From: Chloranthus sessilifolius
Taxonomy: Eukaryota; Streptophyta; Magnoliopsida; Chloranthales; Chloranthaceae
Direction of reading: 5' to 3'
Assembly: GCA_021018995.1 (NCBI GenBank)
Contig: CM037588.1
Coordinates: forward strand, 81,751,765 to 81,815,764
DNA length: 64,000 bases
In this document: piece by piece, positions 1-46,342 of the stretch
Layout: every line of letters starts with the position of its first letter
Numbering within the stretch: the first letter of the stretch is position 1
Translations under genes and position numbers: made by a program
The notes under the pieces: generated by a model
The model's input: only the letters and a program-made list of their open reading frames with translations
Databases searched by the model: none
What the model was told of the DNA's origin: nothing

Positions 1-139
1 TCTCAATCCTATCCGCTTTATCCATTGATAGTTTTCTTTTGGCTGAAGTTTTGGTTTTTCCTTTTGGGGTAGGTTTGCTAATTTTCTTAGCAGAAGATTT
101 TGGGAACATGGCAGCCAACGATTTTTCAGCTTTTCCCAT
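1..139 (-). CDS. E1 ORF2, N-terminal 46 codons only
   Basis: An ATG at 139 opens a minus-strand frame that stays open to the window edge. The 46 visible residues are very basic (many Lys, with Ser, Thr and Pro) and hold no hydrophobic stretch, so no signal peptide is visible. Position (after integrase, after a non-coding spacer) and composition match the Lys-rich N-termini of ORF2 in E2 (14974) and E3 (46343). The domain that would confirm the family is off the window, so the call rests on synteny and composition. Confidence 0.6.
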   Translation of the reverse strand, partial: MGKAEKSLAAMFPKSSAKKISKPTPKGKTKTSAKRKLSMDKADRIE

Positions 140-844
140 TCTAAATTTGTGTATGAAAATGCCCACAACAAATGCTGACACAAAATCAAATTTTGTAAAT
201 GATAAACAGAGGGAATGCACAGAAAAATACCGAGATCTAGGGTTTTTGATTGAACGTGTTGCTTGCTTGCTGAAATCCCCAAGACCAGAAGCTAAAATCC
301 TTCTCTGAAAGCTCAAATGATCGAACAAAGGTGAAGAAAAGTCTGGCTAAATTCTAAAATCACACAAGGAAAGAAAGAAATAGGGTTTCTGTGGAACAGG
401 ACATTCTCAGAAAGCTTTCGAATATGAAACCCTTACTTCGAAAGGGTTTAAATATGCTCAAAGTTAATTTTGGAAAGTCCTTTTTAAGTTTTCGAAAAGT
501 TCCAAAACAGACCTTTTTACAACTGAGAATGGCATCAGTACCATTCGAAAAGCTAATAGCTTCAGAAACAACTTTTCGAAAAGAAAGTGGCTTCAGAAAC
601 AACTTTTCGAAAAGAAAATGGCTTCAAAAACAACTATTCAAAAAGCAAATCCTTGCTTTCGAGCAGTTCGTTACAAATCCAGATTCTTTTCGAAAAGTAA
701 ATTTAACTTTGCGAAAAGACAATTTTTACTTTGCAACTTAACTTTTCACATATTTAGACCTTGCGAAAAGAGAACAATCAATAAAATAGAAACAAAGAAA
801 CTAAGCAAAACTATAAATAAAAATATATGTATGCTTGTATACCA
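140..844 (-). promoter_or_regulatory. E1 spacer between integrase and ORF2 with a TTTTCGAAAAG word cluster
   Basis: This is 0.7 kb without coding sequence. Between about 395 and 725 the word TTCGAAAAG or its near-palindrome TTTTCGAAAAG recurs roughly ten times with irregular spacing. One 31-bp stretch is a tandem pair (560-590 and 591-621). The same word is clustered in the E1 LTR at 7875-8085. A TATTTAAA-like box lies near 447-455 on the minus strand, between the cluster and the ORF2 start. I infer an internal promoter for ORF2; nothing here proves transcription. Confidence 0.55.
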
Positions 845-2235
845 TCAGATTTGGGGAGGCTCTTGAAGATAGATGGGCAGCACAGGCTCCTGGGTATTTT
901 CAATGCATGGTTTGAGCCTCTGACCATTTACTTTCAAAATTCTTCCATTACTTGGATCTAAAATGTCAACAGCTCCAGAAGGAGCTGCATGAATGACAGT
1001 ATATGGCCCTTCCCATATGGATCTCAGATTTCCAGGAAAAAACATAAGTTTTGAGTTAAATAACCATACCTTAGAGCCAGCTGTGAACTCTTTTCTCAAC
1101 AAATTTTTATCATGGAAGGCTTTGACTTTCTCTTTGTAAGATCTTGAATTTGTGTATGCATCCATTCTCAGCTCCTCCAACTCAGCAAGTTGCAATTTCC
1201 TGTGATTACCAGCAGTAGTCAGATCCATATTTGATGTTTTAATAGCCCAAAAGGCTTTATATTCTAACTCCACTGGTAAATGGCATGCTTTGCCATAGAC
1301 CAACCTGAATGGGGACATGCCAATTGGGGTTTTATAGGCTGTCCTATATGCCCATAATGCATCATTCAGCTTAAAGGACCAATCCTTTCTGTCCTTCTTC
1401 ACAGTCTTTTCCAGTATATGTTTGATTTCTCTATTGGAAATCTCCACTTGTCCACTGGTTTGTGGATGATATGGAGTAGCTACTCTATGAGTCACAGAGT
1501 ATTTTTTCAACAAAGTTTCAAAATGTTTATTACAAAAATGGCTTCCCCCATCACTGATAATAGCTCTGGGAAAACCAAACCTGGAAAAAATGTGATCCTT
1601 TAGAAATTTAAGAACCACTCTGTGATCATTGGTTTTAGTGGTTGTGGCTTCAACCCATTTGGATACATAATCCGCAGCTACTAAAATGAAATTATACCCC
1701 TTGGAAGGAGGAAAGGGATCCATGAAGTCTATCCCCCAAACATCAAACAATTCAACTACCAAAATAGGCTGTAAAGGCATTGAGTTTCTCTTGGAAATGC
1801 TGCCCAATTCGCGCTGCAAAGACTTCGGTCTGCAAAGCATCTTTGAAAAGTGTAGGCCAATAAAATCCTCACTGCAAAACCTTTGCAGCAGTTTTGTTTC
1901 CACTAAAATGACCTCCACAGGCCTGTTCATGACACATAGAAAGTATTCTATGAAATTCTTGGTCAGGGACACATTTTCTTATTATTTGGACTACACAACT
2001 CTTAAACAGATAAGGATCTTCCCAGATGAAATGTTTAACCTTTGAGAAGAAAAGATCTTTATCCATTTTATTCCAATGTTGAGGAATTCTTCCAGTAGCC
2101 AAAAAGTTAATTATGTTTGCAAACCAAGGAGTGTGTACACTAATAGCAAAAAGTTGCTCATTAGGGAAAGATTCATTGATAGGCAGCCTATCAATCTCAG
2201 CAGTTAAAACTCTAGACAGGTGATCAGCCACCACA
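845..2235 (-). CDS. E1 integrase (3' end of pol)
   Basis: This encodes the integrase that inserts element cDNA. The N-terminal zinc-binding part lies around 1870-2234 and changes frame near 1870-1970. The catalytic core then runs in one open frame of 375 codons to 845. The DDE residues sit in [15 protein letters not shown] and [10 protein letters not shown], all present. [16 protein letters not shown] block and a C-terminal GPY-like segment (IWEGPYTV) follow. No chromodomain is present, as expected for Athila. The frame change means the polyprotein is broken here, though the core looks intact. Confidence 0.9.
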
Positions 2236-2537
2236 TTCTCTACACCCTTTTTATCTTTGATCTGTAAATCAAATTCCTGTCATAGGAGAATCCACCTGAT
2301 TAATCTTGGTTTGGTGTCCTTCTTAGACAGAAGGTATTTCAAGGCAGAGTGGTCAGTGAACACCACTATTTGTGAACCCCAGACATATGACCTGAATTTC
2401 TCTAAAGCAAAAATAATTGCCAGCAGCTCCTTCTCAGTTGTTGTGTAATTGAGCTGTGCATCAATCATTGATCTACTGGCATAAGCTATGACATGAGGCA
2501 ACTTATCCATTATCTGTCCAAGGACAACTCCCAAAGA
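2236..2537 (-). CDS. E1 RNase H domain
   Basis: This is the gypsy RNase H that follows RT in pol. Visible motifs are a DASD start (split by a stop at the RT junction near 2535), [10 protein letters not shown] with the catalytic Glu, and [11 protein letters not shown] with the catalytic Asp. The domain continues into the VVADHLSR motif (2217-2240) shared with the integrase start. The frame changes near 2279 by a short break. Confidence 0.88.
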
Positions 2538-6510: not shown

Positions 6511-8375
6511 TGTTGTTGCCTCTAAGTGTGCATGATTTATTTGTGTTTTGAAAACAAATGTGCAATTGCTAAGTTATATTGATTCTGGAATATAAAAAGG
6601 GGTAAAGAAATATCAGCACAAAGAGAAGTGAATTAGCCTGCAAGATCAGGGTCAATTGTAGCAAGTTTTAAATGTAAATGAGTAGAAGATCGTCCACAGA
6701 GAATTTGTTTAAAATGTAAGATAAACCTCCAGATCTGAGCTACCAGATCTGGCCTCTTATCCTATCTATAAAGCACATAAGACGGGAGGTTGAATTTGTC
6801 ACATTAACTAAATGATAAAAGTAAAAGTTAAACTAAATGATCCAGATCTGAGTTGGAGGAATTTTGAGGTAAACTTATAAAAATGGAGAAATACTATCTA
6901 ACTTTGATTTGGTCCTTGAAACACAATGAGAATGACTGCAGATCAAATGAGAAATGCTCTAATCTTCATCTGGCTATAAGCACAGATGTAAGAGAAATAA
7001 ATCTAACTCAAGGATTAGATTTAGGCTTATGGCTATGGTCTGTCCACTTTAATGGCCACAGATCATCCAATAGTCTTTAATCTAAACCCTTAATTCAGAA
7101 CAAGAAACATCACTACAAATGCTGTGAGAGATTAGGTTACAAACACTAATTCCCACAGGATTAATGAATCAAGGGAAATTGCATAAAAAATAGTAAATCT
7201 AAAGGAGTCTAATGCAATAAGGAGATCAGAGGGAACCCTTAACATGAGTCCAATTGAGAATGTACGGTTTACAGCATCCTTTTCAAATTCACCATTAGAA
7301 TTACAGAGCACAGGTTAAACAGCTCTCAGATTTGTATTCTTGAATACAACTCTCCTTTGAATTACAGAAGTATCTCACAGCTCTCAATTGCAAGTAAAAG
7401 TGAGGCTATTATAGGGATTTCAGACAAACTATCTGATTTGGAAATGGGGGAATAGGAATGAAACTCAAAATCTGGATACCCAAATTGGGCAAATGGTTCC
7501 TCTATTTATAGTTTTCCCAAGTCTAGCTTAGTAGATAAACCAATCAGAAGTGCTCAGATCTGTATCAACCAATGGTAGTCGAGCACAAGGATCCAGATCT
7601 GTTCTGGCCAATCAAAATGGCTCGATCTGGTTCAGCCAATCAGGCGACATAAGCATCAATTCTGTTATGCATTTTGAAAATCTGTTAGAGCTTCTAGAAG
7701 TTCCCACCAAGTTATTTCATCTCTGGGTGCTCACATGGGGTGGAATATGCCTTTGCTTCATGCTTAGAATCTTCTGGAATGTCCATAGGTTTTTAAATGC
7801 ATTGGGACACGTGAAAAAGATTACTGAATTACCCTTGTAAAAGCTGAGAATCTCCAGAATACCATTTCGCATAGTTTAGGGGACTTTTCGCAAGGTGCTG
7901 TGACTCCTGAAGCTCTTTTCGCAACATTGAGGTTCTGCTCGAAAGGAGTTTTCTTCTTTTCGAAAAGGTCAATCATCTCTTCGAAGAGTTCAGGTGCTCT
8001 TCGAAAACTAAGCCTGGAGTTTTTAGTTCTTTTTGCAGAGTTCAGGTTCTTTTCGAACAGTTCAGGTTCTTTTCGAAAAGCACTCTGTAGTGCATTTTTC
8101 TGTTTGAATTGCTCCACACTTCTTTTATGGGTTGAGACCAGGTCTTTGCCTCTTCATTTCAGACCTTTTAACAGCTAGTGAGGTTGTCCCTTCTCTTTCT
8201 TCCTTTAGATCGACATGGATTATCATCTTTTTGGCACTTTTAAGCTGCTTTCATGGTTAAGCCTGTCTTTATTGTTAGCTGTAACACAAGCACTTAAAAC
8301 ACTTATTTAGTTCTCTTAAAGGTCTATCAAGACCCAGGTTAAGGGTTGAAAAATGGTATTTTCTAGTTCTCAACA
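6511..8375 (-). repeat. E1 5' LTR
   Basis: The 1865-bp LTR is bounded by TGTTG and CAACA. It ends just before the primer-binding site and begins at 8375 on the minus strand with TGTTGAGAACTAG. A TATA box (TATAAATAGA, 7501-7510) lies inside. The CpG word cluster (7875-8085) is upstream of it in U3. The partner 3' LTR is outside the window, so the outer end rests on the TG/CA rule and on likeness to the starts of the E2-E4 LTRs. Confidence 0.82.
7875..8085 (-). promoter_or_regulatory. E1 U3 cluster of TTTTCGAAAAG words
   Basis: About nine variants of CTTTTCG(A/C)A occur in 210 bp, including full TTTTCGAAAAG at 7957 and 8070. The 17-mer TTCAGGTTCTTTTCGAA occurs twice, 20 bp apart (8041 and 8061). 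The cluster is 265-500 bp into the LTR and upstream of the TATA box. It matches the word set in the spacer before ORF2. Confidence 0.7.
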
Positions 8376-9554: not shown

Positions 9555-10110
9555 TCTCACAGAGTCGACGAACTCCCTTGCGGAGCTAAGGATGCAGCGG
9601 AAGCTGCCCTTGTGGAGATAGGGCATGCATTCAAGAGGAGAGCAGTAAAGAAATTGCAAAAATCTCACATCTTAGAACTCTTAGAATTTGTGCTCACAAA
9701 GCTCTTGTGGAGGTCAAGCCTTAAAGCAGCAGTGCGAAGAACATAGCAAATCCATATGCATAAAGGACAATTTGTCACCTCTCAGAGTTCTCGCGAAGCC
9801 CTGGAAGAGAGAGACACCCAAAATTTTCCTCGCGCAGCTCTCACGCACTTTCAAGCCTAACCAATTAATATGCAAGCGCAGGAGCCTACCTAGGTGAGTA
9901 TCCAACGAGAGAGTACTTCTGAAGCTCTACTGCATGAGAAATCCAGGCATTCCAAATCATCTCCGCGATAGCATTGCAGTGCAAAGTAGCTGCGTGATCA
10001 ACTGAGAATCTACCGCGCAAGTGAACAATCCTCCAAAGCCAAATGCTCCTCTGCGAAGGCTCTGCCACAGCGTGAGTGAATTAAGGCAGATGCTAGCCCC
10101 GCGAAGCTCT
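9555..10110 (+). promoter_or_regulatory. E2 U3 cluster of GCGAAG/GCGCAAG words (5' copy)
   Basis: There are many short CpG words: TCGCGAAGCCCTGG, CTCGCGCAGCTCTC, ACCGCGCAAGTG, CTCTGCGAAGG, CCCGCGAAGCTC and others. They stand 20-60 bp apart in otherwise AT-rich DNA, ending about 180 bp before the TATA box. The 3' LTR has the same array at 19965-20465. Several words differ between copies by C-to-T or G-to-A at the CpG. Confidence 0.7.
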
Positions 10111-13735: not shown

Positions 13736-14973
13736 ATCCAAAGATTGATAATAAGTGTAACATATGTGTGAAAAGTTTATTTTGATATGTGTTGTTTCGA
13801 AATTTATCAATTTTTGTTGTCAGTGTGATATTGTTTTGTTTGTGTTGCTTCGTCTATTTTTGAATTTTGTATTAAATTTTGTGTTGAATACATGTGCATT
13901 TTTATCATTTGAATTTGCTATGTATGTTTGTTGATAAATGGTTGAGGTGCTCTCTTCATAATTGCCATGAACTTGATCTGAAAAACTATCTTTAAGATTC
14001 TGCAATTCTGATGAATTGATGTTGTTAAGGGGTACTTAATTATCATGTTGAAATGAAGTACATGTGAGAGGTTTGGTACTGATACTCTATGGTCAGGTGC
14101 ACAACAGCATGGATGCACTAACCTATGTGCAACACTGAGTTAAAAGATTAAAGGTTGAGCATACTGCTTTCTCACGGGCCTTAAAGGCTTCAATCAGCTG
14201 CGTGAGCCTATTTTTGGCTCTCCCGTGCACTAAAACGCCTGAAAAATGGCTGCAATAGAGCCTCATGGAGTTAATTTTGCTCCACAAGCCCAATCCACGT
14301 GAAAGGATTATCATATGTTTTGTTCTTTCCGAGAACATCGCGAGGTAAAATTCTGAAAGGTGAAATAGCTCTTACGCACCAAGGCAAAGCTTCAGCTCCG
14401 CGAAATGTATTGAAAGGCAGTTTTCTTCTGCGCGACATAACTTCTTGCGGGATTAAATGTTAACTGCGCAAGAAATATACCCCACGAGCACTTATTTTCA
14501 ACTCCGCAAACGGTGGGATTAGCTTTATAAACTCTGTGAAACCCTTCATTTGCTTTATTTTATCTTTCTGCCCTACCTTCTCCGCACCACAACCAAAATC
14601 CCCTTTCTCTACTGTCTTCTCTACAACTTAAGTCACTCCACCTAATGCATTTTCCTCCCACCATTTTGTTCCCCAACTACTCCTGGCCACTTTAAACAAG
14701 GTTTGGGGGAATTTGAGCCGCTGTGCAAGATTTTAGGTGGACCCCTAGCTCTCAATTGGTAAGCTCTCCAACTCTTGCTCTGTGCTTTGATTGGTTTAGT
14801 AAATTAGAGAGAAAGAAGGGAAAAATTTGGTGCTTCTGTGCATAGTAAGTGTGTTCTATATTTTCTAAGATTTGCGAGCCCTAAGTTTGATAATTTGAAT
14901 ACCTATGGCCGCTGGTTAAAAATTCATAGGTACCTTAACCGTCGTGCTGAATCATGCTGCTAGTGGCAGCGCT
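13736..14973 (+). promoter_or_regulatory. E2 spacer: pol-deletion junction, GCGCAAG word cluster and TATA box before ORF2
   Basis: There is no coding sequence here. At 13740-14140 lies AT-rich DNA. From about 14170 to 14515 some twelve CpG words appear (CAGCTCCGCGAAATG, CTTCTGCGCGACAT, ACTGCGCAAGAAAT, AACTCCGCAAACGG), the same word type as in the E2 LTR. TATAAA follows at 14526-14531, then a CT-rich leader (14560-14660) as in the LTR. ORF2 starts 440 bp after the box. I infer an internal promoter. Confidence 0.55.
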
Positions 14974-17841
14974 ATGGCCACTAGAAAATTCGTAAGGATT
15001 GCAGAGGCCTCCACATTTGAGACTTCTGAGGTGCCTCCACCTATTGTTGAGCCCCCAATCTAAAAAGAAAAGAAGAAATCAGCCCCAAAGAAGAGGGCCA
15101 GAGAGCACCCACCTGTTAAGAGCCTTGAAAAATTAAAGAAGAAACTGAAAAAGGGCAAAGCTATGGCCCCTGAGGTCCCAAAGGTTGAGGAGGAGGAGAC
15201 TACTGAATACCTCAAGGTCCCTTCTGAATTTGTGCAAATAATCCAGCTGGAGGCTGAAACTATTTTTGACAAAGTCTATTTTGAGGAGCTACTAGAGACC
15301 TCTGCCTCTATTGAGTATCTGACCAAGGCATCTTTGTCGCCCCTATTGTGGCCCCCGATGCTGCTGGTTTTCCCAAGACTAGTGAGAATATTTTGTCAGA
15401 ATATGAGGTTGAAAATTGGTGATGATGGGAACCCAACACTGCTGGTATTGATTGATAACTTTGAGATGCTTTTCAACCAGTCTGACATTGCAAGAATATT
15501 GGGGATACTAGCCATGTATAACCCTGAATGGGGCTTGGGTCCTCCTTTGACTGCCACCATCACTGAGATAGCAAGGGAGTTAACTGGAGGAATCACTGCC
15601 TCAGGTGACTCAACCAGGAAGATGGACTTGCACCCCAACATCAGATTCATGGATGGAGTGTTAAGGAAAAATATTTATTGATCTGGTCATGAGCAAGAGA
15701 GGAGGACCCCCATAGCCGATGCCCTCTTCTCATATCACAGGAATCATTACTTAGATGCAACCAAGTAGATTTTTGAAGAGATTAAGGACCTATGTGAAAA
15801 GGTGAAAATCAAGAAGAAATCTCATGCCCTTTCGTACTGTTGGTTTATTACTGCATTATTGAAGTTTGGGAAATACTCCTTTCAAAGAGAGGAGGAGACA
15901 GTGACCCTGAACTCTAAAAAGAGTAGAAAGAAATAGTGGGGAATCAGTAGCAGAGGGAGGAGTTACTAAGAGAAGCAGCCTCCACCATTCATGAAGTTGC
16001 TATTGCAACTGCTGCTGTTGCTACTGCAAATGCTACTGCATCCTCCACCTAACATGTGCCAGCCAGCACAGCCATTACCTCCCCAGCCATTACCTCTACC
16101 TCCATGCCAGCCCTAAATCCCTTAACACCACCTTTAAGTACACTCACTGCCACACCACCTCCACTGTCATCCCAGACCTCACAACCCCACACAAGTCCAC
16201 TACCCTTACCTGATCCTATATCGCCAATTACCACAGCCATAGCCACCTCAATCTCACCACCATCCATCATAGCCAGTGATACCCTACCCATTTCTGCACT
16301 CTTACCTATGTTTCCAACTCATCCTAGGCCACCTATTAAGACCCCATAACAGAAGAAAAGAAAAGTTGTCAAAACCCCCACTGAACCCCATCCAACCTAT
16401 ATGTCCAAAACCATTATAATCCTTGAAACCACAACCATTCAAGACCCCATACCCACACTCTATGAACCTAAACCCATACCTTTGAAACCCCACATTATTC
16501 CACTAAGACCTCCCCACCCTTTGTACCTAGCACATGTGAACCCCTAGACCAATCCATTCCATTATCCCATGACCATGACCCATTTACAAGAGAAATTCTA
16601 CTATGATGTCCACTATCCTAGGAGACATCAACCTCGAGTATACCCCTCTCCTAGACTCACCTCACCCTCACATTGACCCTCCACATCATACACCACCACA
16701 GGCCACTACCTTCACTCATAGACCCACTTCCCCCTTTCAACTAGTTTCACCTATCCAACCCATAGCCACTACCATACTTGACCTCTTACCCCAAATCCTG
16801 AACCTCTAACTCTCCCTTCATTCCCAAATATTTGCCAATATTCAAACCCAAGCCACCATTGAGGCCAATCTTTATTCAATTCACTCCACCCTACCAAACC
16901 CTACATCCATCCCAACCATTTTACAATCCATCCAAGCAACTTTAACCACTCTAACCCTACCTTCTGAACACTCACCTCTCCCTAAATCAATCCATAATCC
17001 CCCACCTGCTCCTACACCCATTGTACCTCTCCTAGAAACTTTGCCCATCACCTCCAAAGATGCGTCCACCCAAACAGACTGAACCTCAGCTACAACCCAA
17101 ACCTACATCTACCCTTAATGTCCCTAACCCTCTACCCTCCACCCCACCCCTATCTTCATCCTGTCTCTTTCCATTGCTGGCTAGCACTTCTTCCATTGCT
17201 GCTCAGCCCATAATTCCTGCCTCTTGTAATCCCCATACTCCTTACTACACCCTCCTCCAAGTCATACAAGCCAATGCTTACTTAAAGAGGGATGTAGTTC
17301 AAGGCATGGCTGACTTGAAAGCTACAGTGTGGCAGCCTCTTCGTGATAAAATTAAACTCTTGATGCTTACTCATAAGGTTGAGAAAAAAGAAATCAAGCA
17401 AGGATGGAGAGAGATTATGGTCCAATACAATCAGGAAATGAGAAGAGTGAGAGTCATGAAGATGTGATGAAGGAACTAAAAGAGAGACTGAGACTGACTG
17501 AGGAGAGGGCTTATGATTATGGGGTGACTATTGCAGCTTTGGAGAAGTCTGTAAATGCACAAACTGACAGAGAGTTGGCAGAAGCTCTTTTTGAAAACTT
17601 TAACCCAGATGTACCACTCCAGCAAACAGCTCTAGTTTCAAAGGAACCTAGCCAAGTCAAACCTAGACTCATATTCAAGGACCCTACCCCAAAGCCATCA
17701 CCCACTCCAAAAAGAAAAAGCACTACCAGGACAAGAACAACTACTTCCCAAAAGCCACAGTCCAAGGCTGTTGCTTTGAAGCAAGCACAGGGCAAAGGAA
17801 TCCAGGAACCACCTGCTGAAGCCAAAGACTCAGATGATTAA
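14974..17841 (+). pseudogene. E2 ORF2 (additional ORF; 'putative plant transposon protein' family)
   Basis: ATG at 14974 opens an ORF of about 950 codons, now broken by roughly ten stops. In order: a basic N-terminus (KKRAREHPPVKS, LKKKLKKGKAM), a folded region at about residues 80-310 (FPRLVRIFCQN, RELTGGI, MDLHPNIRFMDGVLRK, PIADALFSYH), a long Pro/Thr/Ser-rich stretch (16000-17200), a charged helical part (17300-17560) and a basic tail (TPKRKSTTRTRTT) ending at TGA/TAA near 17841. The folded region is shared with E3 and E5. No signal peptide or membrane segment is visible, so an envelope role is unlikely for this copy. Molecular function is unknown. Confidence 0.75.
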
Positions 17842-19587: not shown

Positions 19588-22263
19588 TGCTATTCACTGA
19601 AAAGTACCACTTTTCACTTCTTAACCTAGCCTTTGATGGACCTTGAAGCTCACTAATAATCATTTGTTAAGTGTGTTTTGTAGTTAGTAATAAACAGTGT
19701 AGCTAAATACAATATCCCTGCTTATTAGTCCAAAGAAGAGAAAGAAAACATGCAAAGATGACAGCTGAGCTAAAGCCTAATAGAACACCCTGGTATGCTC
19801 ACGATGGTGACTCATTTACTGGTCATTATTGACCAAAAGCCTAACAGATGAAAGAAGTTAGGTGAGAATGAAGGAAGCTGCAACAGCAGCAAGTGCAATG
19901 CATTAGAGGATCAAAATACTCATCTCATAGAATTGAGGATGCAGTAGCTAAGGATGCAGTAGAAGCTGCCCTCGCGCAAAAAGGACGTGCAATCAAGAGA
20001 AGAGCAATAAAGAAATCGCAAAGATCTCGCATCTTAAAACCCTCAAAATTTGTGCTCGCAAAGATCGAGCCTTAAAGTAGCCGCACGTAGAACATAGCGA
20101 ATCCATATGCATAAAGGATAATTTGTCACCTCGTGGAGTTCTCGCAAAGCCCTGGAAGAGAGAGATGCCCAGAATTTTTCTCGCGTAGCTCTCCCGCACT
20201 CTAAAGCCTAACCAATTACTATGCTAGTGCAGGAGCCTACCTGTTCGAGTATCCAGCGAGAGAGAACTTCTGAAGCTCTACTGCGCGAGAAATCCAGGCA
20301 TTCCAAATCACCTCTGTGATAGCATTGCAGCGCAAAGTAGCTACGCAATCAACTGAGAATCTTCCATGCGAGTGAACAATCCTCTTAAGCCAAATGCTCC
20401 TCCGCAAAGGCTCTTCCACTGCACGAGTGAATTAATGCAGATACTAGCCCCGCGAAGCTCGGGCTCTCCACTTCTTAGTTTTAACTCAAAGACCTTTGGG
20501 AATTTCTCAATGTTAGGGCACACTTCCTGAGGCACGAATTTTGAGGCACACATCTCAAGGCATTCAAGGGTTGTAACAGTGCCACGTTTGTTGGAAAAGT
20601 TAGGGTCTCTTTTGAGCCAAGGCCTTAGGGACAGAATATATAAGTTATACTTAGAGTTTAGTTTTTTCATCTTTCATTCATCCTCTGTCGACTGAGGGCT
20701 CCAGCAGGCTAGGATTAGGGTTTGATCATCTCCTTTTCTTATTTTTCTTCTCTCTTAGCCCAACATTGGCTGGCTAATCCTTTTATAAGCAGCTAGGTTT
20801 AGTTTTATTTTACTTTTGTAATAGGCTTTGTAAACATTAGGACATTTTGGATGAGCAGTTATGTACAGGCTGTAGCCTTGAGATAGTTCATTATAAGTTT
20901 TGTTTTTATCAATGGATTGTTGTTTTAATGACTAATTAAATCTACAGATCTTATGGTTTTCTAAGATATCTATAGGATCCATGTTTTTACGATTAGCCCA
21001 TTCAGTTTCTAGTAGATCTATTATTTACCATCTAATTTTTCTTGGTTTAATAGACCCATGGATAGCAAGCTAGATCTGTAGCTAGATCTGGAGAGCTCGT
21101 AGCCCTGGGACTCCATGGTGGCAGCAGTAGTTTATATGTTCTTTCTCAGATCTCTGTAGTATGAACAGACCTATCGGATACCCTGTGGCCATTTGAGTGG
21201 ATAGAGTATAACCCTAAGGTGGTGTCCAACCACATATCTGAGAAGGATTCTTCTCCTCTGCACATGAACTTCTAGAGCCTTGTGAGGAGGTTTGTATAGT
21301 AACTGGCTCCCCTCTGTTTTACTTCACCGCTATCAGATGTTAGATCTGATTTCTTTGTAGTAATTGCAGCTTGAGGTTGAGTCATTGTAGGCCTTTTGTA
21401 GCAATGACCAGCTGAATCTAAATCCTTAATCAACCTGTTGCTGGTCCTTTGTGGGGACACATTGAGCCATTGGACTTAGCAAAGTACATAGGATTTTATG
21501 GGTTGGGATACCTATGAATGTTAGCTAGATCTGTGCGCAGATCTGGGGAGCTTGTAGCACTGGCATTACATAGTATCTGCAATAATATTCATGGCCTGAT
21601 TTGGTTTATTGGTTGGGGAAAGGATCAATCCACTCCTTTGGATTAGATTAGCATTTTTGGTTTAATCAATGCGATTTGACAAACTCTATCGAATACTTTG
21701 TGACCATTTGAGTGGATAGAGGATAGCCCTAAGAGCACCCCAAATGGTATGAGTTAAATTGGATTCTTCTACCTTGTTGAGGTTATTGATAGCATCTCAG
21801 CACGGACCACTGCAGAGATAGTCTAAATCTGAGTTACATTGTTGTATTAACTCTAGCTTAACCTGTTTATTTTCCATTATTTTTATATTTTACTTAGGCA
21901 CACACCATCACCATCTTCTTAATCCTTTCTCTAGGATAGGGCTGCACTTTATTTCACTTTTGTTAGGGTTAATTTAGTGTAGTCATGACACCCAACTCCC
22001 TTTCTTTAGAATTGTCAGATCTATAGCCAGATCTGGAGGCCTACTATTATAGCCTATTTTGGGTTCTAGATCAATTTCTCTGTGGGACAAACTCTTACTT
22101 ATCAAAACTTGCTACAATAGCCCTGGATCTTGCAAGCTTAGGATGTTTTAGGATTATTGTTTTCACCATATCACTTTTATCCTTTGTTTTACTTTGATTT
22201 TAATTTCCGTCCAACACCACATAATAAATCAGCACATCCTTTGACAGACCGGAATAGACGACA
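19588..22263 (+). repeat. E2 3' LTR
   Basis: The LTR starts TGCTATTCACTG and ends GACGACA. It is about 2.68 kb and aligns with the 5' LTR with scattered substitutions and small indels. TATATAA is at 20637-20643. It keeps more intact CpG words than the 5' copy (for example AATCGCAAAGATCTCGCATC at 20014-20032, where the 5' copy has TG and CA). Confidence 0.9.
19965..20465 (+). promoter_or_regulatory. E2 U3 word cluster (3' copy)
   Basis: This has the same layout as 9555-10110. Words include CCCTCGCGCAAAAAGG, GCTCGCAAAGATCGAG, CTGCGCGAGAAATCC, GCAGCGCAAAGTAG and CCCGCGAAGCTCGG. It ends about 170 bp before the TATA box. Confidence 0.65.
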
Positions 22264-25868: not shown

Positions 25869-25884
25869 GCCGAAGAGGGGCATC
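25869..25884 (+). promoter_or_regulatory. T1 polypurine tract
   Basis: GCCGAAGAGGGGCATC stands directly before the LTR start, in the usual Tat form. Confidence 0.7.
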
Positions 25885-25947
25885 TATAGACACCTCCATT
25901 TTTCCCTCTCAGAATATACAAATCTATTTGGTTAACCTTTGACCTCA

Positions 25948-26360
25948 TAACCCTAATTGGGACCATATGCTAAAACAATAGTATATGGCTGAACATAGGC
26001 TGAAAGAATAGCTCTGTGGCTCAGGCCCCATGACCCTAAATTGGGAACCATATATTGAAAGAATAGTATATGGTTGGACACAGGCTGAAACAATATCTCT
26101 GTGGCTCAAGTCCCAGCGTAGGGAGACTATATATTAAAATAATAATATATAGTTGAAATGCAGACTGAAATAATAACTTGACATTTTAGACCCCCTAACC
26201 CTAACATGGGAACCATGCACTGAAATAATAGTACATGGCGGAACACAGGATAAACAATAGCTCTGTAGCTCAGATCCCAATGTAGGGAAACTATATATTA
26301 AAATAATAGTATATAATCGAAATACAAGCTAAAACAATAGTCTCGCATTTCAGACCCGAC
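25948..26360 (+). repeat. Five ~82-bp tandem units in T1 U3
   Basis: Each unit has an ACCATATA-type start, AAATAATAGTATATGG, then AGGCTGAAACAATAG and CTCTGTGGCTCAG. Units begin near 25950, 26033, 26117, 26197 and 26281. Alternate units resemble each other more closely, hinting at growth by dimers. Confidence 0.75.
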
Positions 26361-26379
26361 CCGAACCTGAACAGCCCCG

Positions 26380-26760
26380 AATTACGTGCCTAAACCCATG
26401 CACGTAATTTGATTGCACGTAAAACCACACACGTACAATCAGTCCCCCTTTCATATCAGTCTTTCTCTCCTAGACCACTCCGAGACTCGATTATGCGCCT
26501 AACATGAGACGCGCGATCAGATTGAGCGCCCCACCACCAACGCGCAATTGGCCTACGCCCGACCTAGTCATACAGTCCTTGACCCCTAAGCCTCCTCGAT
26601 TAAACACTTCAAATGACACGCTTAATCGAATTGCGTACCCTATAATAAGCATGCAATTAGTCCTAACTTTGTTAGAACTAGGAAACTCCCTGGGCAAGTC
26701 AGCCGGTCACTCACTGAGTCTGTGACCGACTCAAAGCGATTAACCACCGAGAAACTAGCA
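26380..26760 (+). promoter_or_regulatory. T1 U3 cluster of GCGCAATT/CACGTAATT words
   Basis: Words include GCACGTAATTTGATTGCACG, TATGCGCC, ACGCGCGATCAGATTGAGCG, ACGCGCAATTGG and AATTGCGTACC. They stop 50 bp before TATAAAAG. They match the words upstream of the antisense ORF at 23655-24010. Confidence 0.6.
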
Positions 26761-31611: not shown

Positions 31612-32768
31612 ACCCCTCGAATGGAGCTGATATTAAAGACAAGAACTTGTCGAATGGTCCTTCACTTATTCAGCCAACCTGACGAGAAATAGTTTCTATT
31701 GCAGCTCTCTACCTCTCGATCAGCAAGGTTTTCCCTCCATACCAGCATCCATCCACCTATCGAGCAGATCAAAGGGATGGAACCTATTGACAGCTTTACA
31801 CCTTAAGTCCCCAACCTGAATCTATTGACTTCTTTATAAGGAGCATAGCAAGACCTATCGACAACTCCATTTAGATGCAAGATAATCTTGTCGACAGCTT
31901 GGGGCTGTAGCTAGCCCATCCTCATGATAGCTTCACCATGCAGCCAGCCAACCTCACGACTTGTATTCCTCATCAAACCTGTCGAAGAGTAGCTGCTTCA
32001 ACATTCCATCCTATCGAATACTTCAACTCAGCTACAACCTTGCATCTCTTCAATCCTATCGAATTCTGCATCCTTCAAACCTGTCGAATGGATGAGCTAC
32101 ACATCTTCCAATCCTGTCGAAAGGATCCCTTAAAGCTGCAGCAATGCAGCTGCCATCCTATCGAATGGTTCAAGATTAGAGCAGCAGCTTCCTAGCTTCC
32201 CTGCATGCAAAGCTCTAGCTACAAGACAGACCATAGCAGCTGTTGACCGCTTAAATGTCCGAATCTGTCGAGATGCCCAACCTGCAGCACTCCTCTAACC
32301 TCTTGATGCGCATTCAAGATCCTATCCGACCATCTAGACCAGCAGAACCCTTGCTGAAATCCCACACATTCCGACACCTGGTCTTGTACCCGTCATCTTC
32401 AACCTCATGACAGTAATGGCAGCAACCCTTACTTGTGAAGCAGATGCAGCCTCCAAGCTGCAATCCATCAAGTTGCACACAGCCCATCCCCACGAGAAAC
32501 ATGGTGGAGCTCCCAAGCCTTGCAGCCCATAATCCTATCAAACTGCAGCAGCCCATATTCAACCTTCGACATCTTCAAAGCTATAGCCATGCAGAGTTTC
32601 AGCTGCAATTCACACCATAAAGCCCTTTGACCGACTAAATATCTCAATCCGTTGAGATGCCCAACCTTCGGCTTTCTCCAATCTGTCGATGTGCAATCAA
32701 GATACTATCCAACCGTCGATTTCTCAGAAAGCCCTTCAAATCTGGCGCCTTATGTGCAGCTGCATACA

Positions 32769-32800
<32 letters not shown>

Positions 32801-33130
32801 CTCCTTGCAAGTTTCAGCTGCAAAATCAGGCCATAAAGCCTGTTGACCGCCTAGATATTTCAACCTATCGGGAAGCCCAACCTCCAGCCTGCTCCAAACT
32901 TGTCCAGATGCAGTCAAGATCCTATCCAACCATTGAATTCTCGGAAAACCCTCAAACCTGGCATCTTAAGTGCAGCTTTAGATATATATATATATATATA
33001 TATACTTCTTATTTCAGCCTCCCATTGCAACCTGTCGAAGGGTTCTTTGGACTGCAAATTAGAACCCATCGAATGGGTCATGTGGCTGCAGCTCCACCTA
33101 TCGAAATACTTCAAGCCTATTATTTCAAGC
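31612..33130 (+). promoter_or_regulatory. E4 U3 cluster of CCTATCGAA words, strongly expanded
   Basis: More than twenty CCT(A/G)TCGAA(T/A)GG variants are spread over 1.5 kb, for example CATCCTATCGAATAC, AACCTGTCGAATGG, AATCCTGTCGAAAGG. The word is that of E3. Within it three degenerate units of about 200 bp (near 32235, 32612, 32826) share TTGACCG, GATGCCCAACCT, CAAGAT(C/A)CTATCC; two carry (TA)n. Confidence 0.75.
32773..32800. repeat. (TA)n microsatellite
   Basis: Fourteen TA units. A second run (32982-33004) sits at the matching place of the next internal repeat unit. Confidence 0.95.
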
Positions 33131-34688
33131 TGCAACCATGAGATCTAACATCAGTAGTTTAGTAAAACAGGGCCCATTCGGGCCTGTTTTGGTGACAAAC
33201 AGTAGAGGTACATTGGGCTATTTTTGAAAATAATTACAGCAGGGGCATTTTGGGGCAGCCAAGAATAATTTGTGGGCAATCACTTGAGGTGTGCAACTAG
33301 AAAAAGGGGCAGCATGGGACCATTTTTCGGACAGCAAGTTGAGCAGCATGTATTTTTGGTAAACAAGGGCAAATTGGGAACTCCAATGCACAGGAAACCT
33401 TGCACATGGGTATGAGCTAATTTTTGGCGGGAATGCAAGTTAGCTTCAGCTGGGCACAAACAAAATCAGATCCTTATCTCTTCTCTGATTGGTCGAAACT
33501 CTTAAATAGGGAGTAAGCTTAAACTGAAATCCTCTCCTCTGATTGGCAACAATCTAAAGCACAAGGATCAATGCACACTTATAAACACCCATCTATTTTG
33601 CTGTTTTTCTTCAGGAAGGAAAGTAAGAACAAAGGAATAGCCTGAGTTTTCCTTAGCTCATTTAGGTTTAGTTTAGGTTTTTATTTTCCTTTTTCTCTTC
33701 CCCCTTCTCTCTCTAATCCAACCTGTTGGATTAGATCTAGATAACAACTTAGATCTGGTTTGTAATTGTAATTTTGGCAGGAAGAAATGTGAATCGATAC
33801 ACAGACTACAGATCTAGGAACAAATTTATTGTAAGTTTTTTTACTTGAAGCAATAAATTGTTGATTTTAAAGCTTAGTTAAATCAAAGATCTTGTGGTCC
33901 CATTAGATTCTCAATCGGATTTGTGTAGAGGAGTTTGTTAATCAGCTCACCCACTTAACTAGTAGATCTCTTGATGACCATCTGATTTCCCTAGGTTTGA
34001 CATGCCTGTGGGTGTCTGTGCCTGTGACCTTGCATCCACAGCATCTGTAGTGATTATCTTGTTCTAATCAAAGCCATCGGAATGGAGGAAATCTATTGGA
34101 TGATCTATGACCATTTAAGTGGACAGATCATAGCCATAAGATCAATCCAAACCGGGGATGGAGGAAATATATTGGATGGTCTGTGATCATTGAAGTGGAC
34201 AGATCATAGCCATAAGATCAATCCAAACTGCCGGTCTAAATTAGATTCTTATACCTTACATTTGTGCTTGTAGCCAAATGGAGGATGGCTGCATATCCTC
34301 AGATCTTGATCTGTTTTGCAATGAAAACCATGCCCTGGCTGTCTATTTCTCACCATTTGATCTTTATTTTTCCATCCATCTTCCTCCATCTTTTAGTTTA
34401 GTTTTATTTCAGTTTGGTAGAATTAGATCTAGTGACACCCGAAAAGCTCTCTTTCTCCTTAGAATTACTAAATCTATAGTTATATCTGGAGGTCTACTAT
34501 AAACCTCTTAGGTTTAGATCACTACTCCCTGTGGAACAAACTCTTACTTATTAAAACTTGCTACAAAGGACCTTGTATCTTGCAGATCTAGGATATTTTA
34601 GATGTGTTGATTCTACCCTCTGTTTTAATTTATTTTTATTTTGCCTTTATCATTACACAATAATCAGCACACTAGAAATCCTACAATA

Positions 34689-35123
34689 GTCCCCCAGTCA
34701 TCTTGGTGGCAATGTGATGGAATTTCACATTCTTGGAGCATGCGACTCGCAAACCTAAGCTCTCATCAAAGGTCGCACTACAATCCATAGCCTTAGCTAT
34801 GTCTTGCAATTCAAAATGAAATTTTCGGCCATCAATTTCATTATCTAATTGGCCAAAAAACTCAATAGGTTTTAAATATTGGTAAAATAATTTGACAAGG
34901 CGGGGATAAAAGTGTGTATGTATGGGCTGAAATAGGGCTTGTAAATGTGCCTGTTCAAGGTATTGTAATGACCATGCAGTCAGATCTGTCGCTACAAGTA
35001 ATGATTCCTCAATCAACCAATCAGGTTCCATGGCTTTCGCGTCCCATCTGGGACGTAGATGGGGCGTTGCCCTTATCTTTTGCCGTAGCCTTTGGCCGAA
35101 CGAGTAGAATTTTAGAAGCCATG
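34689..35123 (-). pseudogene. E5 ORF2, N-terminal part
   Basis: ATG at 35123 opens a short basic stretch (MASKILLVRPKATAKDKG) that shifts frame near 35031. The next frame (35031-34681) has HFYPRLVKLFYQYLKP, matching FPRLVRIFCQN of E2, and HHIATKMTGG at the E4 insertion site. No signal peptide. Upstream is a CpG word cluster with a TATA-like box. Confidence 0.7.
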
Positions 35124-35289
35124 GCCTTCCTTGGAGGCATGGTAGTTCAAAAGCTTGAAAAGAAACAACAAGAACTGAAATTAGGATTTTACCTCAAAGA
35201 TGCAGGCCAAGCTTGATTCTCCGACATGCAATAAATTTCAGCGTAAAATCGGAGAGTTTTGAACTAAAATGAGTTGAGTGTATCTCGAG

Positions 35290-35446
35290 AGGGAAAAATA
35301 TAGAGACCCCACCACAACAGAACAATAAAAATGACAATTTGGGGGTTTCAGCCCCACTTACATTTGTGGTGGTTGCCGCGGCAACCTAGGATGCTTCCCG
35401 CGGCAAGCTGCTTGCCGCGGCTAGCCTATACCTTGTCGCGGCAAAG
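35290..35446 (-). promoter_or_regulatory. E5 promoter-like region: TTGCCGCGGCAA words and TATA-like box
   Basis: Four copies of a GCCGCGGCAAG palindrome variant stand in 75 bp (35373, 35397, 35411, 35433). On the minus strand they precede TATATTT (35296-35302) and then the ORF2 start. Confidence 0.55.
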
Positions 35447-40497: not shown

Positions 40498-42489
40498 TGT
40501 TAAGTGATGAGAAATGCCACTTTTCACCCTTTAACCTGACCATTGATAGACCTATGAGCACACTAATAAGCTTCTATCAAGTGCATGTTGTAGACAGCAA
40601 TAAAAGAGGACACTAATGCAGAAAACCACTCAAGAATGCCCAAAAAGGGGCTCTCTCTCAGCACAGGACAAACCCAGCAACAGCACACCCGAGGGTAGCA
40701 CATCACTCGACCCTTGGAGCGTGTGGCTGCAGCAAGGTAAGGCGAAGGAAGTGAAAACAGGCTGAAAACATCCTATCGATTGGTCACCTAAAGACTTCGA
40801 CAGGAGCTGAAAGCAAAGAAAGGAAGAATTCATGCAGTTGAAGAGGTTTTCGATAGGATCTAAAGGCAGAAGAAGGATGAATTTGTGTGAATTGAGGAGT
40901 TCGATAGGATCCAAGAACCTACCAAGCAGCTGAAAGGAAGGAAGAAATCATCCTATCGAAAACCTGCCTGAGGCGTCAAGGGAACCTATCGAATGGTTTC
41001 TTCAAACCTATCGAGATGAAGGCGCTGGAACAGAACCTATCGAAGGGAACTTGAGCCTTTCTATAGGAGCGAGAGCAACCCTATCGAAATGGTGGCATGC
41101 AGAGTGGAGCCTGTCGAAATGGTTCTCCAACCTGTCGAATACTCCAGGCTGAGGGCTGAGAATGCTAAAACTCTAAGAGAAGGCTCATCCTATCGGAACC
41201 TATCGAAGAGATCTGAGAGCCTAACGACTGGCACGACGGTTCCAGAAGATGCCTTAGGAAACCCTGACTGACCCACGTGCTCTAACAGAACTCTAACAAA
41301 CTCTGAGGACCTTCTAGAAGGGATTTTTGGCAGGAAAAATAGAGGAGAAAGCTATATATTGAGACCCCCAATTGCGATTGCGGGGGGATCGAGATCTAAG
41401 CCAAATTCTGGAGATTAGAGCTTGCAGAGAAATTCTATTTTCCCTCCTTTAGCCCAACCATGGTTGGCTAATTCCCTTGGAGTAGCGAGGAGAGAGGTTA
41501 GATTTGTAATTGGGTAAGGTTAAGAGTGTTATTGTAGGTTCCTAACTGCACAGACTCCAGATCTGAGAGTATTTCTATTGTAGAGTGACTTTGATTGCAA
41601 TGATTAATGTTATTTTTAATGCTTTAATTAGATCTAAAGTTCCTTTGGTTCCATTTGGTGATCGATCGGATTTGTGTAGAGGAGTCTGTAGATCAGCTCA
41701 CCCACTTAACAGGTAGGCCTCTTGGATACCACCCGATCTCCCTAGATCTGATACTCCTGTGATTCCTTGAGTCTGTGACCTAGGAATTGCAGCATCTATA
41801 GTGGTTTTAATTAGTCTAATTGAAGCCTTAGCTTTGGAGGAGATCCTTAGGATGGTTTGTGACCATTAAAGTGGACAGATCATAACCTTAAGATTAGTCC
41901 AAGCTCAGGCTCCAATTAGATTCGTCTGTTGCAAATCCATGGATTCGATAAAATCTATAGGATTGTCTGTGACCTTCAAAGTGGACAGATCATAGCCTTA
42001 AGACCAGGTGGATCCTGCGATCTGAAGTGGAGTTTATACCCTGCAGCTACGCTTATAGCCAGTTGAGGGAATTGTGTGCTCTGAACCTCTATAGCATAAT
42101 TAATTGAATCTAATTTCAGTGAAAACCAATCTCCAAGCAACTCTTCTCCATTTTCTGCTTTTTACCTCTTTCCCCTACAAGATATAAGATCCTAAACTTG
42201 ATCAAAGTTAGTCTATGTTTAATTTTAGCTTAGCTTAAGTGACAATCCATTTTAAACCTCTCCCCTGTCTTCTAGCTAACATAGCACTAGTTAGGGTGTC
42301 AGATCTAATATAGATCTGAAGATTTATCATATTTTTAAACCAACCTCCCTGTGGACATTCCCTTACTCACAATCTTTGTAAAACTTGCTACAACAAACCC
42401 TGATTACTTACAGGTCTGTGTGACCGTGTTCTGCCTAGTTTTATTGATGATTTTAGACCCTCATTTGAGGGAAGGCAAACACTCCAACA
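40498..42489 (+). repeat. E3 5' LTR
   Basis: 1992 bp from TGTTAAGTGATG to CCAACA, ending 7 bases before the primer-binding site. CpG words at 40770-41225, TATATAT at 41353-41359, then repeated GTGGACAGATCATA blocks (41870-42010). Confidence 0.85.
40770..41225 (+). promoter_or_regulatory. E3 U3 cluster of CCTATCGAA words
   Basis: About fifteen words on both strands: CATCCTATCGAAAACC, GAACCTATCGAATGG, ACCCTATCGAAATGG, GTTTTCGATAGGATC, and others. The cluster ends 130 bp before the TATA box. The spacer before ORF2 (45675-46035) carries the same set. Confidence 0.75.
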
Positions 42490-44400: not shown

Positions 44401-44408
44401 GACCACCA

Positions 44409-45410
44409 GTGGTGGACTTGAAGGAACAATCAGCTATGAATAAAGAGGATAATGAGGATCCTCAAGAAAAGAAAAAAATAAAAAAGAAAGAGGCCCCATT
44501 AGTTAAGGCTGCAAGTGAGGGAGAAATCCCATATTTGCCATTTCCTAAGGCACTACAAGCACCTTCCCCTTTTGATAAAGGGCAAGAAAAAATTGAGGAA
44601 ATGATTGAGACTTTCAAGCAAGTAAAGATCAATTTGCCTTTACTTGATGCCATTAAACAAGTCCCAGCCTATGCCATGTTTTTAAAAGAACTATGCACCC
44701 ATAAAAGACAATTCAAGATACACCTATCCAAGAAAGTCTTTTCAGCAGAGAAAGTGAAACAAATTTTGTCGATTGCAACCCCAACCAAATTCCAAGACCC
44801 TAGAACCCCCACAATCCCCTGCATCATTGGGAATCACATCATTGACAAAGCCTTATTAGATCTGGAAACCAGTGTAAATTTGCTTCCATATTTAGTATAT
44901 GAGAAGCTGGGCTTAGGCAAATTAAAGCCCACACATGTGGTCCTCCATCTGGCTGACGGATCTGAAAGGAAACCTGTGGGAATAATTGAGGATGTTTTTG
45001 TTGGAGTTGACAAATTCTTCTATCCTACTGACTTTTTGGTATTAGACATGGAACCAAGCAAATGTGCTTCTTCCATACCTGTGATTCTAGGCAGGCCCTT
45101 TTTAGCCACTGCCAATGCTCACGTACAATGCAGGTATGGGATCATGGAAGTGTCATTTGGAAACATGAAGGTTAAGTTGAATGTGTATAACACTGGCTAT
45201 CAACCCTCTCCTGAAGAGGCTTGCTTTTCCATTAATGCCCAAAAGAATGTGATGCATGATAATCCACATTGGCTGGTGCAGGACAATGCTTGGTTCACAG
45301 ATGGAAAACTGCACCCAGGGAATGGACACTGGCTGAGGAAAAGATCTATGAAAGGTGCCAAGATTGATGAGCCTGACGAGATCATGAACCTTTCAGACTC
45401 TCCAGATTAG
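44409..45410 (+). CDS. E3 aspartic protease region
   Basis: 333 codons, open. KALLDLETSVNLLPYLVYEKLGLG replaces the E1 DLGAS loop by DLETS, so the conserved Gly is lost and activity is doubtful. KFFYPTDFLVLDME and RPFLATANAHVQC follow. After EEACFSINAQ the tail (NPHWLVQDNAWF...NLSDSPD) has no counterpart at that point in E1; this marks the edge of the missing RT-integrase part. Confidence 0.85.
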   Translation: MVDLKEQSAMNKEDNEDPQEKKKIKKKEAPLVKAASEGEIPYLPFPKALQAPSPFDKGQEKIEEMIETFKQVKINLPLLDAIKQVPAYAMFLKELCTHKRQFKIHLSKKVFSAEKVKQILSIATPTKFQDPRTPTIPCIIGNHIIDKALLDLETSVNLLPYLVYEKLGLGKLKPTHVVLHLADGSERKPVGIIEDVFVGVDKFFYPTDFLVLDMEPSKCASSIPVILGRPFLATANAHVQCRYGIMEVSFGNMKVKLNVYNTGYQPSPEEACFSINAQKNVMHDNPHWLVQDNAWFTDGKLHPGNGHWLRKRSMKGAKIDEPDEIMNLSDSPD

Positions 45411-46342
45411 CCCCTGAAGCCAGTATGTATCATATGTACCATACTTTGTTTTTAGGTGTTTACTTAGTTGTTACTTGATTCATTTTATTTCCTTGCAATA
45501 ATAAAAAGAAAACAACAAAACTGTCATGCTCAATACTAGACCATCATTCCCAGTTGTCCTGAGGTAATGGGAGTTGCTCACAAGTGAATCAAATCATGGG
45601 GCACCACATCAACAGAGCCTGCTCAGAACTGAGACTGTGAGTGCCAAAAAATACAGCCTTATTTGGTTTTTAGAAGTCTTCGACAAGTCAAGTTCACCTT
45701 TCGATAGGCCACATGGTGATTTCAGCAGGATGTTCGATGGTTTCAATAGGCACTGAACTTCTTGACAAGTGAAACTAACTTTTCGATCGGCTAAAAAGAG
45801 CAAAATGGAGATTTCGATAGGTTCTAGATACCAATCGGGAACCTATCGAAATGATGACTCAGCTGCCATTTAAGCTAATCAAAAGGATAGTTCCACCTAT
45901 CGGGATCCTATCGAACCATCCCCTTTTGAGGTTTTGTATGCTATGCTTTCGACAGGTTGCATGAACCTATCGAGACCATCCAGTTCATCCTATCAGAATC
46001 GTATTCCACCCCTTATATACCTGTCGATAGGACATTTGTGCCTCATTCCATACCTTATGCAAAACCCTAGCTCTTTTGCTCTCTCTTTCGCCTCCCTCTT
46101 TCTCCACTAAATCCTCACAGAACCTTTAGCTATTCAATCTGCCATTTTGTCAGTACATTCAGCTTGCACAAAGGAGCATTTTGCGCTTGACTTTGAAAAA
46201 CTTGAAGCTGTGTATTGCAATTTTTGTTAAACCCTAGGCATTTCGAGGTTAGTTCCCTTTCCACCATCAATCTGTCGTTTCTCTAATTTTTAACCTTCAA
46301 GCTCCACTCCCTGTTGGTGAGTGACTAGTCTCCGAGAGAAAA
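45411..46342 (+). promoter_or_regulatory. E3 spacer with CCTATCGAA words and TATA box before ORF2
   Basis: No gene. From 45675 to 46035 at least twelve words: TTTCGATAGGCC, TTTCGATAGGTTCTAG, AACCTATCGAAATG, CACCTATCGGGATCC, TTTCGACAGGTTGC. TATATAC is at 46014-46020, then a CT-rich leader and the ORF2 ATG at 46343. The layout repeats that of the LTR. Confidence 0.6.

Follow-up and report, generated by a model that had tools for sequence, protein, structure and literature searches.

Family-specific CpG-centred words recur in the LTR and before the extra open reading frame of Ty3/gypsy-type elements of Chloranthus sessilifolius

Extra open reading frames (ORFs) of Athila-like and other plant long terminal repeat (LTR) elements have no accepted function, to go by the accessible text of PMC7264820. 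A 64,000-nucleotide stretch of the Chloranthus sessilifolius genome (contig CM037588.1, positions 81,751,765 to 81,815,764; hereafter the window), in which LTR elements lie nested, raises the question of whether such an element carries the same DNA word in its LTR and in front of its extra ORF, and what might read it there. An earlier note on this DNA had claimed that it does in four elements of the window (E1, E2, E3 and T1), each with a short CpG-centred word of its own; we refer to a further element of the window as E4 and to a chromovirus-like element as C1. The labels Athila, Tat and Tekay, in part those of the earlier note, stand for a presumed lineage rather than one taken from trees. 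Profile matches to Retrotrans_gag, Ty3_capsid (in C1), RT_RNaseH and integrase mark the elements as Ty3/gypsy-type, neither Ty1/copia elements nor VANDAL DNA transposons. Further copies were sought in the same source genome (2.17 Gb, 32 contigs), and the word tests cover four families, E1, E2, E3 and C1. The word pairs that we describe at the LTR and pre-ORF sites of these families are very probably shared functional operators.

The E1 word is CTTTTCGAAAAG, a CpG-centred dyad with TCGA at its centre, and it is clustered on the minus strand both in the unique 3′ (U3) region of the LTR (7863..8082) and before ORF2 (415..771, where CTTTTCGAAAAG dyads are joined by variants and a TATA-like TTTAAA stands near 452). 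The TATA box of the LTR, CTATAAATAG, was read in the sequence at 7503..7510 (minus strand), and the basic N-terminal part of ORF2 (1..139, minus strand) continues off the window into L030. When matches with at most one mismatch were counted on both strands, so that a full dyad counts twice, TTTTCGAAAAG matched 18 times in the window (2.9 expected), with 17 of these matches inside 488-718 and 7956-8080. The 7-mers common to U3 and the pre-ORF2 spacer reached a sum statistic of 64, where no shuffle among 500 exceeded 31. Taken singly, the best shared word was equalled in count by 35 of the shuffles at k = 6, by 3 at k = 7 and by 1 at k = 8. A CpG-context matrix trained on U3 recognized the CpGs of E1's own spacer with an area under the curve (AUC) of 0.89. 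E1's own 3′ LTR, read in L030 (96% match), contains the words, and a second E1 copy, L031 (LTR match 87%), has the word in both LTR and spacer.

The same arrangement was found in E3, whose word is CCTRTCGA, often with WWGG next to it. On the plus strand this word is clustered, in both orientations, in U3 (40777..41204, TATA box near 41353) and before the broken ORF2 (cluster 45681..46025, with a TATA-like box at about 46014, at the array's end; ORF2 46343..47454, with a weak PF20167 match). CCTATCGAA, allowing one mismatch, occurs 52 times in the window against 9.6 expected, the 7-mers common to U3 and spacer sum to 67 against a shuffle maximum of 7 (500 shuffles), and the U3-trained matrix gave an AUC of 0.87 on the spacer. 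Four E3 relatives carry the pattern CC[TC][AG]TCGA 7, 7, 7 and 4 times in the spacer, and three of them, whose match to the E3 LTR spans most of it at 80-94%, carry it 13, 13 and 10 times in U3; in the fourth it is absent downstream, where the sequence does not match the E3 LTR (L038 gave no match to that LTR). The LTR cluster lies upstream of the TATA box in four of four E3 copies, and we read the same order in E1 and E2. The E3 word is also carried by the E4 LTR (31756..33105, plus strand), which interrupts the chromovirus extra ORF; E4 was grouped with E3 because its U3 and the E3 spacer reach a shared 7-mer sum of 65.

In E2 the pattern is looser. The earlier note's exact words, GCGAAG and GCGCAAG, are not enriched, and the exact 7- and 8-mers common to U3 and spacer are at chance level (7-mer sum 4, shuffle maximum 16). 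These exact-word tests were superseded by CpG-context matrices and family copies, the copies pointing to a loose CTYCGCGRAG-like dyad with a CGCG centre. A matrix trained on E2's U3 recognized the CpGs of its own spacer with an AUC of 0.77 (p 1.3e-6). The clusters, all on the plus strand, lie in U3 of the 5′ LTR (9735..10102, TATA box near 10292), before ORF2 (14175..14511, TATA box at about 14525, CTTTATAAAC) and in U3 of the 3′ LTR (19973..20460). ORF2 itself (14974..17841, plus strand) is broken by stops and has a basic stretch, a PF20167-like domain and a P/S/T-rich part, with relatives in L013 and L024.

The E2 family also provides a record of which CpGs have been kept. The E2 ORF2 piece has at least 151 matches in the genome, at 74-100% identity among the matches listed (the best 150 of 40,331 candidates), and from these we retrieved 20 copies; E2-type LTR sequence lies downstream in 17 of the 20 and is usable from the first bases of the LTR in 15, which together with E2 itself make up a U3 set of 16 rows. 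In copies bearing an E2 LTR, CpG counts peak twice, before ORF2 and in U3. Between copies, the two clusters keep CpG at rates of 0.54 (before ORF2, 17 rows) and 0.50 (in U3, 16 rows). Elsewhere the rate is 0.17 both upstream and in the leader, 0.08 within ORF2, 0.04 in U3 1-330, 0.38 in U3 900-1060 and 0.23 and 0.32 in the R/U5 (repeat and unique 5′) part; the other dinucleotides counted are retained at 0.39-0.77. Columns with CG in at least 40% of rows number 31 before ORF2 and 42 in U3, with none in the first 1,200 positions (0-1200) of ORF2. At those columns TG or CA accounts for 174 of the 205 and 229 of the 271 cells that are not CG (about 85%), against 184 of 283 and 231 of 327 (65% and 71%) for the matching transitions at GC columns. 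Decay that runs mostly to TG/CA indicates a loss of CpG in silent copies somewhat like that of methylated DNA, and the CGs retained in the clusters indicate that the source elements evidently had CG at these sites; the simplest reading would be that selection in an active lineage accounts for them. A TATA-like box lies directly behind the pre-ORF2 array in 15 of 17 rows (offset 510-537 of a 600-base stretch). The retention, spacer and ORF2 counts use 17 of 21 rows, leaving out L014, L022, L025 and L028, and the U3 counts use 16 of 21, leaving out L011, L013 and L022 (no LTR match), L021 (LTR match beginning at base 1332) and L028 (match jumping the cluster).

Two of the E2-family copies have words of other kinds near them. 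In L011, which has an E2-family ORF2 upstream and no E2-type LTR, dense TCGATTAA/ATTAATCG repeats occur at two sites about 3 kb apart (roughly +4134 to +4574 and +7361 to +7943 from the ORF2 match; 52 places), perhaps belonging to another element with a word of its own. In L025, TGGCGCAACTA-like words flank the E2-family copy (roughly -1575 to -1439 and +7828 to +7928 from the ORF2 match) and are perhaps parts of an element into which that copy inserted.

A fourth word, which the earlier note had not named, is found in C1. It is TTGCCGCGGCAA, with a CGCG centre, and four TTGCCGCGGCAA-like dyads form an array (35373..35444, minus strand) before the extra ORF, whose first piece (34681..35193, minus strand) is related to Athila-like ORF2 and whose second lies at 30596-29877. 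If the layout is general, relatives of C1 should carry TTGCCGCGGCAA in their LTRs. Six relatives were retrieved (L041-L046), and TTGCCGCGGCAA is present in the LTR of all four in which the LTR was reached, roughly 1.07-1.38 kb from its start; the word is perfect in L041, L043 and L045 and has one mismatch in L046. Before the ORF it occurs with at most one mismatch in L041, L043, L044, L045 and L046, and L042 has a single such match among decayed ones. The sequence of L044 ends before the expected LTR site, and the DNA downstream in L042 does not match the L041 LTR and is uninformative on sharing. LTRs were called in this family from a polypurine tract followed by a TG start (L041, L043) and from homology between copies, with the LTR end unseen. 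As a side observation, C1 (29877-35193 and 40573-35860, minus strand) is a chromovirus-like element with an Athila-ORF2-related extra ORF after its integrase, split by the Athila-like LTR E4.

The words exceed what base composition yields and are largely confined to the two sites of their own family. Own-spacer and LTR counts, with the largest of 100 dinucleotide shuffles in brackets, are 14 and 17 for E1 (3 and 3), 18 and 29 for E2 (3 and 6), 34 and 47 for E3 (5 and 4) and 10 and 12 for C1 (2 and 2), and reversed-word controls gave 0-4. Matches per kb in the spacer, the LTR site and the rest of the element are 10.4, 6.6 and 0 for E1, 1.7, 2.3 and 0.02 for E2, 8.2, 13.3 and 0.12 for E3, and 6.4, 15.0 and 0 for C1, the 15.0 referring to LTR segments cut around words already found. 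For the C1 counts set against shuffles, the LTR stretch was taken in full from the four copies whose LTR site was reached (starts approximate in L045 and L046), together with four of six spacers; both E2 counts use the same 16 rows, including L014 and L025 (shifted spacers) and L027 (a gap in the LTR match). In the sites of other families the words mostly occur 0 times, the exceptions coming chiefly from the E3 pattern, the loosest (per kb, 1.5 in the E1 spacer, 0.4 in E1 U3 and 0.37, or 36 matches, in the rest of E2; 5.4 in E4, as expected). Crossed U3/spacer pairs among E1-E3 have shared 7-mer sums of 1-9. For E1, E3 and, more loosely, E2, the earlier note's claim of family-specific words common to U3 and spacer holds, and this sharing recurs in other genome copies of E1, E2 and E3 and in the relatives of C1.

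These counts bear on the possibility that the sites are passive CpG islands with chance words, or that a piece of U3 was copied inward. In the Athila-like elements U3 and spacer are indeed richer in CpG than the remaining sequence, and the exact words of E2 are at chance level, but the dinucleotide shuffles and reversed words yield small counts and the sites seldom hold words of other families. We rejected the idea that part of the LTR had been copied into the spacer, since runs of LTR-spacer identity in E1, E3 and two C1 copies end at the word edges, at 13-14 bp; no matching stretch was found between the E2 LTR and spacer. That identity stops there indicates that the two sites were acquired or kept separately, and the downstream clusters of E1 and E3 copies sit in sequence matching their own family's LTR. 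A passive, chance or copied origin is therefore largely contradicted, and we consider it very improbable.

T1 was rejected as a member of the pattern by the word count, the shared-word test and the matrix test. GCGCAATT is not enriched (seen 32 times against 36 expected), no word common to U3 and the antisense-ORF promoter could be detected at the proposed sites (23805..26549), and the U3-trained matrix did not recognize that promoter (AUC 0.52). The claim that the pattern spans the Athila and Tat lineages therefore fails as stated, and the shared words stand in E1 and E3 and, more loosely, in E2; a second lineage is nevertheless present, in the form of C1 (40573-29877, minus strand). Separately, the antisense-ORF promoter and U3 of T1 are CpG-rich (observed/expected 1.02 and 0.84 in 23430-24700 and 25900-26810).

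E1 (minus strand) runs from an LTR start at about 8376 through a primer-binding site at about 6508, gag (6338-5394) and reverse transcriptase and integrase (to 845) to a spacer ending at 140 and ORF2 from 139 leftwards. E2 (plus strand) has LTRs at 9223-11919 and 19591-22263, 88% alike, enclosing a gag-like ORF, the spacer and ORF2; pol was not found between them. In E3 (plus strand) an LTR from about 40506 is followed by gag and protease-region ORFs, the spacer and ORF2 from 46343, and reverse transcriptase and integrase were not found. The E4 LTR (30790 to about 34680) lies inside the minus-strand extra ORF of C1, whose gag-pol (40573-35860, minus strand) is followed downstream, in sense, by the two ORF pieces (35193-34681 and 30596-29877). 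Elsewhere in the window, 52433-52587 is an inverted repeat with 77-base arms, 94% complementary, and a one-base gap.

A layout of this kind is known from Sireviruses. According to the accessible text of PMC2829016, published in 2010, 13 Sirevirus elements have element-specific palindromic boxes, found in the 3′ LTR of all 13 and just upstream of ENV in all nine that bear ENV; the LTR boxes precede the TATA box, and the clusters are CpG islands in most elements. The motif is deemed there to be Sirevirus-specific and lacking in classic retrotransposons, and to support an internal promoter; as binders of the boxes the same text considers nuclear factors, and it does not put forward the env product in that role. 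E1, E2 and E3, and C1 with fewer copies, resemble these elements in having an element-specific palindromic word repeated in the LTR and before the ORF. On the order of LTR cluster and TATA box they give a mixed picture: the cluster comes first in E1, E2 and E3, and the clearest TATA box comes first in the C1-type copy L041. They differ in that the Sirevirus core is CGG-CCG except in Tnd-1 (TCGA centre), here being TCGA (E1, E3) or CGCG (E2, C1), and in that Sireviruses are Ty1/copia elements and ours are Ty3/gypsy-type with a PF20167-like extra ORF. In the open-access full text searched we saw neither a description of the layout for Athila-like or chromovirus elements nor one of an env-like product binding the boxes. 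The earlier note had thought a retrotransposon version new; the layout is already known from another superfamily.

The extra ORFs are related between families, at 24-49% identity. The highest value between families, 49%, is that of E1 and E3 (E1 from one copy, E3 from 169 residues); E1-E2 pairs are at 34-38%, E2-E3 pairs at 39-41% and C1 against the others at 24-39%, with 56-89% within the C1 family. PF20167 (Transposase_32; Putative plant transposon protein) was the only match of the three longest frames scanned (L013, E 4.3e-9; L024, 5.8e-10; L031, 5.7e-8), at 33.3-39.8 bits and so below the curated cut-off of 45 bits; among the window pieces E3 scored 20.1 bits and E2 and C1 gave no match. 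ORF2 of E1 and E2 has a basic, K/R-rich N-terminal stretch, and that of E1 an acidic P/S/T-rich part (41%, isoelectric point 4.5). By 19-residue hydropathy, with no dedicated membrane predictor, two E2-family frames reach maxima of 1.24 and 1.38, the C1 frame L043 has a hydrophobic stretch near its C-terminal end (1.97), and values of 2.01 (L044) and 1.77 (L030) lie before the ORF's first ATG. The L043 stretch notwithstanding, the predicted product resembles a nuclear regulator more than it does an envelope protein. No relatives were found for the E2 ORF2 piece in a protein database or in a search of viral contigs, PDB sequences gave a single match (E 0.5), and an AlphaFold model of the window ORF2 pieces (mean confidence score, pLDDT, 41) was not used. 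Other plant extra ORFs are described in the accessible texts of PMC7264820, PMC11963269 and PMC11728184: Grande gene23 has its own promoter and a nuclear product, Retand TRP28 has predicted DNA binding and a suggested regulatory role, a sunflower Athila ORF is PF20167-like with a nuclear signal, and sunflower Tekay elements have additional ORFs too. Those texts report no motif common to the LTR and the extra-ORF promoter.

In the explanation that we favour, each family would have two promoters, one in the LTR and one before the extra ORF, both with arrays of the same family-specific dyad operator, and a single sequence-specific, probably dimeric factor would work at both. The most economical candidate for this factor would be the extra-ORF protein, made from its own promoter and returning to activate, or keep unsilenced, that promoter and its own family's LTR. 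We put the probability of this explanation as a whole at about 0.5, and for its central part, binding of the words by the extra-ORF product, we see the case as evenly balanced. A precedent in anatomy is foamy virus Tas, which experiments show to act on an LTR promoter and an internal promoter (PMC4929722, in the part accessible); here, too, one accessory product would serve two promoters, in our case to judge from common words. That both promoters answer to one factor had been proposed in the earlier note, and words common to the two sites of a family are what this predicts. The palindromic form of the words suggests a dimeric binder, and their persistence against decay together with their association with the ORF family suggests an element-encoded factor. 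The closest pair agrees, the E1 and E3/E4 words being TCGA-centred and the E1 and E3 ORF2s most alike, with CGCG words in E2 and C1. In the Athila-like families, moreover, TATA-like boxes stand at the end of the pre-ORF2 arrays or directly after them. That the sites act as promoters, that one factor serves them, which factor this is, and that it activates rather than represses or counters silencing are all inferred from such features. An E1-like element, L032 (G000:C1:28935500-28943499), may depend on a factor supplied in trans: it is internally deleted (about 6 kb, LTRs about 70% like those of E1), has words in both LTRs and none in between, and, among gag, reverse transcriptase, integrase and ORF2 queries, matches only the C-terminal end of ORF2.

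Alternatively, host transcription factors might bind the words, a different one for each family, the LTR sites then being reused before the ORF so that both respond to the same cue. LTR enhancers made of repeated host-factor sites are common. Sirevirus boxes, moreover, hold mainly sites for stress factors and are kept in the LTRs of ENV-less elements, as far as the accessible text of PMC2829016 goes. This alternative would, however, require every family to have recruited a factor of its own, each time at both sites. The words differ between families of one genome, yet are still recognizable across 56-89% ORF identity in the C1 family. We regard it as unlikely, though a serious competitor to an element-encoded factor.

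The extra-ORF protein might also bind the words to strip silencing marks rather than to activate transcription, as VANC does. For VANDAL elements, the accessible text of PMC5735166 describes a protein encoded by the transposable element, short target repeats, often tandem, that diverge between related elements, and loss of methylation; in our elements the words are CpG-centred and E2 copies decay mostly to TG/CA, as expected of methylated CpGs. VANDALs are, however, DNA transposons with often tandem targets. Ours are LTR elements whose extra ORF is PF20167-like and whose dispersed dyads occupy two sites resembling promoters, with TATA-like boxes close by in the Athila-like families. A role confined to removing silencing marks seems to us improbable. 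VANC, which the earlier note had called the nearest analogy, is a fair one in function, and Tas is closer in anatomy. PMC12844716, in the part accessible, raises VANC-like epigenetic modulation by Athila ORFs as a question, without data.

Several results weigh against the self-encoded, two-promoter explanation. The words are not strictly private: the matrix trained on E4 scored higher on the E1 spacer (0.87) than on the E3 spacer (0.81), those of E1 and E3 weakly recognized each other's spacers (0.72 and 0.70), and that of E2 reached 0.62-0.72 on the spacers of other families, slightly above control. The E2 word is loose, its strict pattern being absent from 5 of 16 spacers and 2 of 16 U3s. 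As for C1, TTGCCGCGGCAA with at most one mismatch was found nowhere else in the window, including the C1 LTR, which appears from its sequence to have been cut short of the word site; the spacer words of L045 and L046, and the LTR word of L046, are imperfect; and a paired LTR was not seen in the family. No TATA-like box was found behind the C1 pre-ORF arrays, and C1 gag-pol is not CpG-poor (0.65). In L041 the clearest TATA box precedes the LTR array by about 640 bp, and a further TATA-like string follows the array after about 130 bp. The apparent co-variation of word and ORF is suggestive, coming as it does from four families, and the LTR boxes of ENV-less Sireviruses (PMC2829016, accessible text) indicate that an element-encoded factor is not required in cis.

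We tentatively propose, at slightly less than even odds, that the extra ORFs of Athila-like and chromovirus-like elements encode fast-diverging dimeric DNA-binding regulators, each reading a private CpG dyad at the promoter of its own gene and in its family's LTR, in a self-activating or anti-silencing circuit; if this is true, the Sirevirus boxes would be a convergent case. Private operator words allow a direct and cheap test of one function of an extra ORF, namely binding to its own word, and they would explain how element families in one genome are regulated separately. Taken with the Sirevirus boxes, our findings suggest that this layout has been reached more than once in plant retroelements with an extra ORF.

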